Source of the DNA: Halosimplex litoreum
Lineage (GTDB): Archaea; Halobacteriota; Halobacteria; Halobacteriales; Haloarculaceae
Reading direction: 5' to 3'
DNA: 64,000 bases
Assembly: GCF_016065055.1 (NCBI RefSeq)
Contig: NZ_CP065856.1
Location: 2,913,836-2,977,835, forward strand
Shown: in pieces, positions 27,339 through 35,600 of the stretch
Position numbering within the stretch: the stretch's first letter is position 1
Layout of the letters: each line of letters starts with the position of its first letter
Notes under the pieces: generated by a model
The model's database searches: none
Told to the model about the DNA's origin: nothing
Seen by the model: only the letters and a program-made list of their open reading frames with translations
Position numbers and translations under genes: made by a program

Positions 27339-27749
27339 ATGACAGACTCCCCCGCCGAGGAACTCGACGACATCGAGTCCGACCTGGCCGACGCCAGTGA
27401 CGAGGGAAGAGAGATCGTCGACCAGATCCGGGAGAGCGACGAGGGTGCGCTCCGCGCGGCCGTCCGATACGGCGGCGACGACCACGAGGTCGTCTATATC
27501 CGCGAAGACATCGAAGCGCAGTTCAGCGAGGCCGAACTCGACGAGCGCGTCGAGACGCTCGTCATGAAAGGACTCGGCGACCCCACCGAGGAGGGCGCGC
27601 TGTTCGACTTCGGCGGCCTCGACGCCACCGTCCGCTGGTACGACGCCGTCGTCGTCGCCCACTTCCCCGTCCGCGAGTGGTCCGGCCTCGTCTTCACTTT
27701 CGACCGCGAGTCCGACTCGCTCGGCGATATCGTCGACGAATATTTCTAG
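27339..27749 (+). CDS. Conserved haloarchaeal hypothetical protein
   Basis: 136 aa, very acidic, cytoplasmic. It begins with a helical segment (DDIESDLADASDEGREIVDQI) and continues as an alpha/beta domain (GGDDHEVVYIREDIEAQFSEAELDERVETLV, TVRWYDAVVVAHFPVREWSGLVFTFDRES). It ends LGDIVDEYF. The sequence resembles small conserved haloarchaeal proteins of unknown function. The repeat element at 27756 begins directly after its stop codon. Confidence 0.72.
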   Translation: MTDSPAEELDDIESDLADASDEGREIVDQIRESDEGALRAAVRYGGDDHEVVYIREDIEAQFSEAELDERVETLVMKGLGDPTEEGALFDFGGLDATVRWYDAVVVAHFPVREWSGLVFTFDRESDSLGDIVDEYF

Positions 27750-27755
27750 ACCATC

Positions 27756-27890
27756 TTTTTCCCGGCCGGGTTTCCTCGCGCGCCTGCGGCGCGCTGCGGG
27801 AACCCGGACGGCAAAAACATGGGTGAAAAAGCGGGACGCTCACTTCGTTCGCGTCCCGTGAACCGCGCGCCTGCGGCGCGCGGATGCTCA
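27756..27890 (+). repeat. Multi-hairpin dispersed element, copy A
   Basis: About 135 nt starting with a T-tract. Hairpin 1 is a 10-bp stem with one G-U (27766-27775 with 27798-27807) holding an inner 7-bp hairpin GCGCGCC-TGC-GGCGCGC (27778-27794). An A-rich linker with CATGGGTGAAAAA follows. Hairpin 2 pairs CGGGACGC (27832-27839) with GCGTCCCG (27851-27858). Hairpin 3 is CCGCGCGCC-TGC-GGCGCGCGG (27863-27883), followed by ATGCTC. Copy B at 35194 has the same plan with different bases in the stems. It may be a mobile palindromic repeat, a structured RNA, or both. Confidence 0.85.
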
Positions 27891-34569: not shown

Positions 34570-35151
34570 CTACTCGTCGTCTTCTTCGACGACTTCGGGG
34601 TCTTTCATCGCCGTCTGGAGGCTGTCGAGCCCGTTGACCCACTGGACGACGAGCCCGGGTTCGACCTCTTCGGCCATCGACGGGTCGAACTCGGCGCCGT
34701 CGACGACGAGCGTCCCCGCCTGGACGCAGTAGGACAGCGCGGTATCTAGATCCTCTTCGGCCTCGGCGTCGGCCGCGGCGCCGACGTACTCGCCGATAGG
34801 TGCGTCTTCGGCGGTGCCGCCGACGACGAACTCCTCGGCGGCGTAGAAGACACAGACCAGGGAAGTCTGGACGCTGTCGACGAGCATCAGCGCCTGTTCG
34901 TCCTCGAACTCCGGTTCGGCGAGGACGACCTCGCGCATGTCTTCGATCTCCGAGAGGGCCTCCTCTTCGTCGAGGACGCCCTCCTCGAAGTCGGAGACGA
35001 CCTTGACGACGGCGATCGCCGTGTCGTCCTGCATGTTCCAGAGCAGCTGCGCGGTGTCGTCGTCCTCGGGTTCGAGGTCCTCCTCGTCGATCCTGTCCAG
35101 CCAGTTCTGCCAGCGTTCGGGCGTGTAGTACTCCCCCGGCTGATTGCTCAT
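34570..35151 (-). CDS. DUF2150 family protein
   Basis: 193 aa from ATG 35151, supported by a TATA-like CCATATGAC at 35174-35182; an in-frame ATG 14 codons earlier is rejected. Strongly acidic, starting with YYTPERWQNWLDRI and ending GLDSLQTAMKDPEVV. The central region (VVKVVSDFEEGVLDEEEALSEIEDMREVVL) is helical and resembles the archaeal DUF2150 family. Function unknown. Copy B of the repeat element begins 43 nt before its start codon, on the other strand. Confidence 0.78.
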   Translation of the reverse strand: MSNQPGEYYTPERWQNWLDRIDEEDLEPEDDDTAQLLWNMQDDTAIAVVKVVSDFEEGVLDEEEALSEIEDMREVVLAEPEFEDEQALMLVDSVQTSLVCVFYAAEEFVVGGTAEDAPIGEYVGAAADAEAEEDLDTALSYCVQAGTLVVDGAEFDPSMAEEVEPGLVVQWVNGLDSLQTAMKDPEVVEEDDE

Positions 35152-35193
35152 ACAACGTCGTTCGTCGCTCCGGTCATATGGCTTTCGACCCAC

Positions 35194-35338
35194 CTTTTTT
35201 CGCCGGGGGTGTCCTCGCGCGCCGGGGGCGCGCTGCGGGCACCCCCGGTCAAAAAACGTGGGCGAAAAAAGCCGGACGACTCGCTCACTCCGTTCGCTCG
35301 CGTCCGGAGAACCGGCGCCGAGGGCGCCGGATGCTCGG
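35194..35338 (+). repeat. Multi-hairpin dispersed element, copy B
   Basis: Same plan as copy A. Hairpin 1 has a 12-bp stem with one G-U (35203-35214 with 35237-35248) around the inner hairpin GCGCGCC-GGG-GGCGCGC (35217-35233). The linker is AAAAAACGTGGGCGAAAAAA. Hairpin 2 pairs CCGGACG (35272-35278) with CGTCCGG (35301-35307). Hairpin 3 is CCGGCGCC-GAG-GGCGCCGG (35312-35330), followed by ATGCTC. Stem bases differ from copy A but pairing is kept. Confidence 0.85.
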
Positions 35339-35424: not shown

Positions 35425-35600
35425 ACTGCGCCGCTACCGCGCCGCTACCGCGCCGCCACCGCGCCGCTACCGCGCCGCCACCGCGCCGCCACCGCACCGC
35501 CACCGCGCCGCCACCGCACCGCCACCGCGCCGCCACCGCGCCGCCACCGCGCCGCCACCGCGCCGCTACCGCGCCGCCACCGCGCCGCCACCGTACCGCG
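35425..35600. repeat. 11-bp minisatellite, about 16 units
   Basis: Tandem units of ACCGCGCCGCC or ACCGCGCCGCT run from 35425 to 35600 (176 nt, 16 x 11), with degenerate first and last units and a few single-base variants. The period is not a multiple of three, so it is not a protein repeat, and it lies between two minus-strand genes. It follows copy B of the hairpin element by about 90 nt. Confidence 0.9.

Follow-up and report, generated by a model that had tools for sequence, protein, structure and literature searches.

Intergenic terminators described in Haloferax consist of a stretch of T residues, T5C among them; an inserted T5C ended 95% of transcripts in vivo, and hairpins lie upstream of part of the mapped 3′ ends (PMC7237163). 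The element described here resembles these terminators in placing T5C directly past genes. The Haloferax terminators are, however, simple tracts, whereas the element is a dispersed unit of 140 bases with a conserved multi-hairpin fold and T5C on both strands.

Bacterial REP/BIME, REPIN, ERIC, BOX, RUP and Correia sequences are likewise short, dispersed, intergenic, palindromic and non-autonomous, lie near gene ends, and in some cases act as terminators. They are mainly conserved in sequence, whereas the stems of the element are free in sequence and its feet covary between lineages. The occurrence of REP/BIME is tied to the RAYT enzyme, and no such enzyme is tied to the element; membership of the REP/RAYT system, marked by a sequence-conserved palindrome with a foot of the GTAG/CGTC type and a linked Y1 REP transposase, is not supported, the stems being unconserved in sequence and the feet reading CCAY, CGAC, GAAC and others. 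Haloarchaeal MITEs and PATEs are also short, non-coding and multi-copy with complementary ends, but in the element the internal stems are unrelated between copies, there is no fixed-length target-site duplication, and no parent transposase is tied to it. The likeness to the attC sites of integrons is architectural only: both follow stop codons and form hairpins of conserved structure and free sequence, with complementary boxes and unpaired bases. The element, in contrast to attC, follows chromosomal housekeeping genes and also sits upstream of promoters; no cassette arrays are seen and no integrase is tied to it.

A dispersed family of hairpin elements

The window, that is the whole stretch of 64,000 nucleotides of the Halosimplex litoreum genome that was analysed, holds two copies of the element, A and B. 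An earlier note had described them as a multi-hairpin element whose stems differ in sequence yet pair; all the parts that it listed are present in both copies, with model coordinates a few bases wider. The features of the two copies and their neighbours are as follows.

27339–27749, + strand: gene whose stop codon adjoins copy A; 136 aa, no Pfam match.
27751–27887, + strand: copy A, whole element, CATGGGTG subtype; 122.5 bits with the R1 covariance model, beginning 1 nt past the TAG that ends the upstream gene.
27751–27760, + strand: 5′ foot of copy A, CCAT.C.TTTTT, pairing with 27813–27822 (from sequence and Y-R covariation); with the next C it forms a T5C tract on the + strand.
27761–27812, + strand: stem 1 of copy A, with the outer helix GGGTTTCC/GGGAACCC (27768–27775/27798–27805) enclosing an inner hairpin (from sequence; covariation-tested helix 2).
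27813–27830, + strand: linker of copy A, AAAAACATGGGTGAAAAA, read on the − strand as CTTTTTCACCCATGTTTTTG with two T5 tracts.
27832–27858, + strand: stem 2 of copy A, CGGGACGC/GCGTCCCG (from sequence; covariation-tested helix 3).
27863–27887, + strand: stem 3 of copy A, CCGCGCGCC/GGCGCGCGG, then ATGC (from sequence; covariation-tested helix 4).
34570–35151, − strand: DUF2150 gene (PF09920, E = 1.4e-64), whose promoter region adjoins copy B.
35174–35187, − strand: promoter-like CGAAAGCCATATGA between copy B and the DUF2150 gene, kept in congeners; a probable promoter, judged by position and sequence.
35190–35334, + strand: copy B, whole element, CGTGGGCG subtype; 119.1 bits with the R1 covariance model, beginning 38 nt upstream of the DUF2150 start codon (gene on the − strand).
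35190–35199, + strand: 5′ foot of copy B, CCAC.C.TTTTT, pairing with 35252–35261.
35252–35269, + strand: linker of copy B, AAAAACGTGGGCGAAAAA (from sequence and the linker pattern).
35272–35307, + strand: stem 2 of copy B, CCGGACG/CGTCCGG; one G-C pair is replaced by A-T in an orthologous copy (L218).
35312–35334, + strand: stem 3 of copy B, CCGGCGCC/GGCGCCGG, then ATGC (from sequence).

Copies A and B are members of a previously uncatalogued family of dispersed DNA elements of about 140 bases that occurs across haloarchaea and in which the shape of the hairpins is kept while the paired letters are free to change. The members are small (about 120–200 bp), non-coding and non-autonomous. In kind they are small dispersed hairpin repeats. 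The linker pattern AAAAANNNGGGNGAAAAA has 40 matches in the 4.16-Mb genome of Halosimplex litoreum and its reversed control has 0, which, together with covariation above all 500 shuffles and every register slide, excludes chance. A covariance model recovers 54 sites in the same genome (E ≤ 1e-6, a rough value owing to short calibration) and between 39 and 71 per genome in seven congeners. With about 160 copies and a class-wide model in hand, the description of a dispersed element that keeps its pairing while its sequence changes is borne out, and the search that the earlier note had proposed yielded both further haloarchaeal copies and strong covariation.

Of 391 genomes of the class Halobacteria, 81 contain the exact linker, most of them in the family of the window; the matches listed include carriers in Haloarcula, Halomicrobium, Halorientalis, Halosimplex, Halorhabdus, Halovenus and others. 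Within the class, the structural model has matches in 122 of 145 genomes, spread over 52 of 59 genera; 85 genomes from elsewhere in the phylum gave none. Carriage by viruses was rejected, as only two of 15 exact linker matches in viral contigs fit the model, weakly and in low-GC sequence, and look like chance; bacterial linker matches, among the matches listed, were likewise treated as chance. In Rfam 15 no family matches the element at or above the gathering threshold, the whole 64-kb window giving only a tRNA, and permissive searches of the element loci return only sub-threshold miRNA matches on the elements. Within the open-access papers searched, literal linker strings lead only to unrelated papers, and no matching haloarchaeal repeat of this kind is described in titles and abstracts.

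Architecture and covariation of the stems

The aligned copies have a common architecture, which begins with the foot CCAY, an unpaired C, T5, stem 1 with its inner hairpin, A5, another unpaired C and RTGGG. Next come a short spacer whose last base is G and another A5 tract, and then stem 2, (G)TGAAC, stem 3 and ATGC. Stem 1 has a conserved internal motif, TCCTCG...CTGCGGG, and additional nested hairpins are present in some stems (L003, L005, L028, L066). The T-tract, the first A-tract and the feet form one long outer helix, in which CCAY.C.TTTTT pairs with AAAAA.C.RTGG around a C.C mismatch. The earlier two-copy description missed that the T-tract and first A-tract belong to this helix, and its copy number falls short of the roughly 40 to 54 per genome. 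Its stem pairings are real, including the G-U shared by both outer stems, a position at which most copies have T.G. In one copy upstream of a DUF2150 gene (L222), two further hairpins are inserted in the linker inside GTGG/GCG, with both A-tracts kept.

Among 42 copies and 29 pairs, 93.7% of cells pair, compared with 78.3% after shuffling, and double changes occur in 19 of the 29 pairs. The score for covariation is 0.333; shuffled alignments give 0.094, and 0 in 500 of them reach the observed value, while sliding the 3′ partners lowers it to 0.045–0.076. Covariation thus lies above both kinds of control, as in a structure-conserved element. A structure-free scan of all column pairs ranks the same helices at the top. 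Common descent of the copies means that the shuffle count cannot be read as a probability; the slid control, and the foot changes that arose independently in different families, are free of that weakness. The foot Y and the linker R are C-G in 86 copies, T-A in 63 and C-A in 1. In other families the foot and its partner have changed jointly, to CGAC/GTCG (L263, L264), GAAC/GTTC (L269), GTA/TAC (L271), CCA/TGG (L268, L273), CGAA/TTCG (L293) and CGA/TCG (L225).

The selection on folding that the earlier note suggested is consistent with this covariation, but it is unproved. Stems 2 and 3 hold 9 G.T and 3 A.C among 1,679 pairs, and this near-absence of G.T is unlike an RNA stem drifting through wobble intermediates. 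Correction of one arm from the other, or replacement of whole hairpins at the DNA level, fits the scarcity of G.T at least as well and may contribute. The idea that stems usually vary through being copied whole was largely rejected, since in the main set 154 of 158 sequences of stem 1 are distinct; there are clear exceptions. In 133 of 158 copies the − strand gives the more stable fold, and three-base loops of the GNA type number 118 on the − strand against 44 on the + strand (p = 5e-9; background about 8% for each kind); strand preference was judged by loop type and fold energy, the mismatches being too few for strand assignment.

Placement at gene ends and recent copying

The position of the element was assessed in 143 copies with called neighbours on both sides, using a simple codon-usage gene caller. 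Two positions prevail. Of 55 non-redundant left-hand sense genes, 21 have the foot 0–3 nt past their stop codon (before redundancy removal, 40 of 73 left-hand + strand genes have an element starting no more than 12 nt from the stop), so that T5 stands on the sense strand shortly past the gene end, as in a T-tract terminator. Of 54 non-redundant left-hand antisense genes, 18 have the foot 38–41 nt upstream of their start codon, a distance at which the upstream edge of BRE/TATA is expected in leaderless haloarchaeal genes. Copy A, 1 nt past a stop codon, and copy B, 38 nt before a start codon, match these two modal positions and are typical of the family. Elements favour convergent and avoid divergent intergenic regions, with 45 convergent, 16 divergent and 82 co-directional settings compared with 27, 94 and 130 among intergenic regions that lack an element (p = 2e-10, from copies that are not independent of one another). 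Where both neighbours point the same way, they are transcribed along the − strand in 54 cases against 28 (p = 0.005). The claim in the earlier note that the copies lack a constant position relative to genes, and that this argues against a plain terminator, is therefore not supported: the copies occupy two modal positions, and the bias in gene arrangement favours a terminator role. A general tendency of haloarchaeal genes to end in T5 was rejected, as only 37 of 524 genes without an element have T5 within 80 nt downstream.

The promoter site of the DUF2150 gene holds an element in 7 of 7 congeners with complete flanks and also in two other genera (L225, L232), where the stems are very different. 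Orthologous copies at this site differ in stem 2 by one compensatory pair only (L217 and L218), while another (L220), of the CAT subtype, has a new 5′ half with the same flank and stem 3 kept, a modular replacement. At the 3′ end of EngB, several genera and families carry an element, each with feet of its own; others have none there, and congener G161 retains a remnant. At the site of copy A the element is present in two congeners (G405, G402) and absent, with changed synteny, in two others (G415, G161).

In the window, between copy B and the next gene (35430–35600), there is a degenerate tandem repeat of about 11 bases (ACCGCGCCGCC), of which related forms are found behind other copies. One element (L271:1416–1700) follows a tRNA gene and another (L088) a tRNA-like 3′ end, and the tRNA 3′ end recurs downstream (GGTTCAAATCC...), a trace of the kind left by integrative elements. 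In three species (L044, L048, L054) the element lies between a duplicated gene start (ATG and 24–43 nt) and the full gene, which belongs to the same oxidoreductase-like family.

The elements are mobile or recently copied, as follows from identical copies at distant loci in a congener, from differences in presence and orientation, and from partial duplications of gene ends. In congener G161 copies are identical over the whole 139-nt match at distant loci (L323–L325; L326 and L327; L328 and L329), and L330 is 99% identical to the L326/L327 group; such near-identical dispersed copies, three of them 100% identical and joined by other pairs, are a mark of MITEs. Identity stops 3–9 nt before the foot and 16–39 nt past ATGC. 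The gene end that adjoins L326 carries an element in + orientation in G161 and in − orientation in both G419 and G402, while G415, G000 and G405 lack one there, and the left-flank site of L329 lacks the element in G415, G405, G401 and G000.

About 43 copies adjoin a partial duplication of a gene end, 24–120 bp long and often including element remnants; these duplications usually begin at the stop or start codon or in the remnant of a neighbouring element, and finish 0–8 nt before the foot. Tandem arrays are present as well (L021/L022, L012/L013, L034), with three units in L043. Classical target-site duplication of fixed length, expected of a transposon-derived MITE, was rejected because the lengths vary, gene ends are what is duplicated and element remnants are included; the recent G161 copies show no target-site duplication by eye. 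The duplications were probably provoked at the hairpins.

A second dispersed repeat of about 300 bases (GCGAGGGATGAGCGA..GGCTGGGGAGG..GGACTGAAAGGGCGAGGC..GAGGGCTTTC), without an Rfam match, is found at L001:1572–1900 (+) and at L031, L084, L190, L273 and L275; it often directly follows the element after ATGCTCAGTACAGG, both in Halosimplex and in another family. The motif TCAGTACAGG or its reverse complement CCTGTACTGA stands at many element borders, to the left of the foot in L323, L324, L334 and L335 and at the right end in L326–L330, as well as between tandem or inverted elements, and may be a terminal motif of the spreading unit.

Proposed termination and competing explanations

The most likely reading, to which a probability of about 0.6 is given, is that the family represents bidirectional transcription terminators or insulators, dispersed throughout the haloarchaea as hairpins conserved in structure and free in sequence, and spreading to new sites. 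It is based on the presence of T5C on both strands, in light of the Haloferax result, on the positions at gene ends, on the bias in gene arrangement and on the low frequency of T5 after element-free genes. The better fold of the − strand and its excess of GNA loops are also counted in its favour, and the identical G161 copies and the differences among congeners speak for the spreading. On the + strand, T5C lies directly at the foot, and a gene ending there would stop within about 10 nt of its stop codon. Transcription along the − strand would meet stem 3, stem 2 and then CTTTTTC...GTTTTTG, in the manner of a hairpin terminator with a double T-tract, which may shield the next promoter. Spreading would depend on a putative trans-acting machinery or on recombination provoked by DNA hairpins. 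Termination itself, and the importance of the folded − strand, are inferred. Against this reading, no transposase and no clean target-site duplication of fixed length was found, 16 of the 143 copies lie between apparently divergent genes, and stem 1, strongly structured and situated between the T-tracts, would be in neither transcript if both ends terminate well, and is left unexplained by a pure RNA-terminator role.

Second in rank, possible yet clearly less probable, is a mobile element of folded DNA, in which a recombinase or transposase would recognise the single-stranded hairpin and termination would arise as a by-product and render insertions tolerable. The foot and its complement would then be comparable to a guide and cleavage site, or to the paired boxes of integron attC. 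Feet that change by lineage together with their complement would suit such recognition, as would stems that are free in sequence, nearly perfectly paired and hardly ever wobbled, the prevalence of stable GNA loops on one strand, identical dispersed copies, and the recurrent occupation of the same gene ends, at times in opposite orientation. However, no enzyme is tied to the element and no constant target sequence was found, single-strand transposition would not be expected to give gene-end duplications, and the bias in gene arrangement exceeds what insertion alone predicts, though selection could produce it. Equally tentative is the corresponding proposal of a shape-recognised class of archaeal mobile elements, in which the enzyme would act on an extruded hairpin, the tetranucleotide foot and its complement would co-evolve with that enzyme in each lineage, and insertion would target promoters at their upstream edge and transcription units at their 3′ end.

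The remaining explanations fit less well. A stationary regulatory RNA element, selected at particular gene ends and evolving rapidly by compensatory change, is improbable. The DUF2150 promoter site, occupied in all seven congeners as well as in L225 and L232, the EngB 3′ end occupied in several families, and the single compensatory pair between L217 and L218 are as such an element would predict, but many orthologous sites are empty, which already suggests against selection at fixed gene ends; moreover, orientation and subtype vary at one site, identical copies are dispersed, G.U pairs are nearly absent and the adjoining genes have no function in common. A passive, functionless repeat produced by hairpin-provoked replication slippage and ectopic gene conversion is slightly less probable still, since unpaired motifs are kept across the class, the positions are tight and gene arrangement is biased, even though the 43 copies with partial tandem duplications of gene ends and element remnants, the modular replacement in L220, and arms that remain complementary without wobble intermediates are what it would leave.

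These dispersed non-coding elements occur in the majority of haloarchaeal genomes tested, have no Rfam entry and were not encountered in the open-access papers searched; they offer unusually clean natural data for telling selection on folding from arm-templated repair. Their tight placement, 38–41 nt before start codons and 0–3 nt after stop codons, along with the co-evolving feet, makes the question of what moves or maintains them directly testable. If the terminator role is true, the elements would provide many housekeeping genes with portable bidirectional terminators, and would help to explain how neighbouring genes are insulated from each other in dense archaeal genomes.
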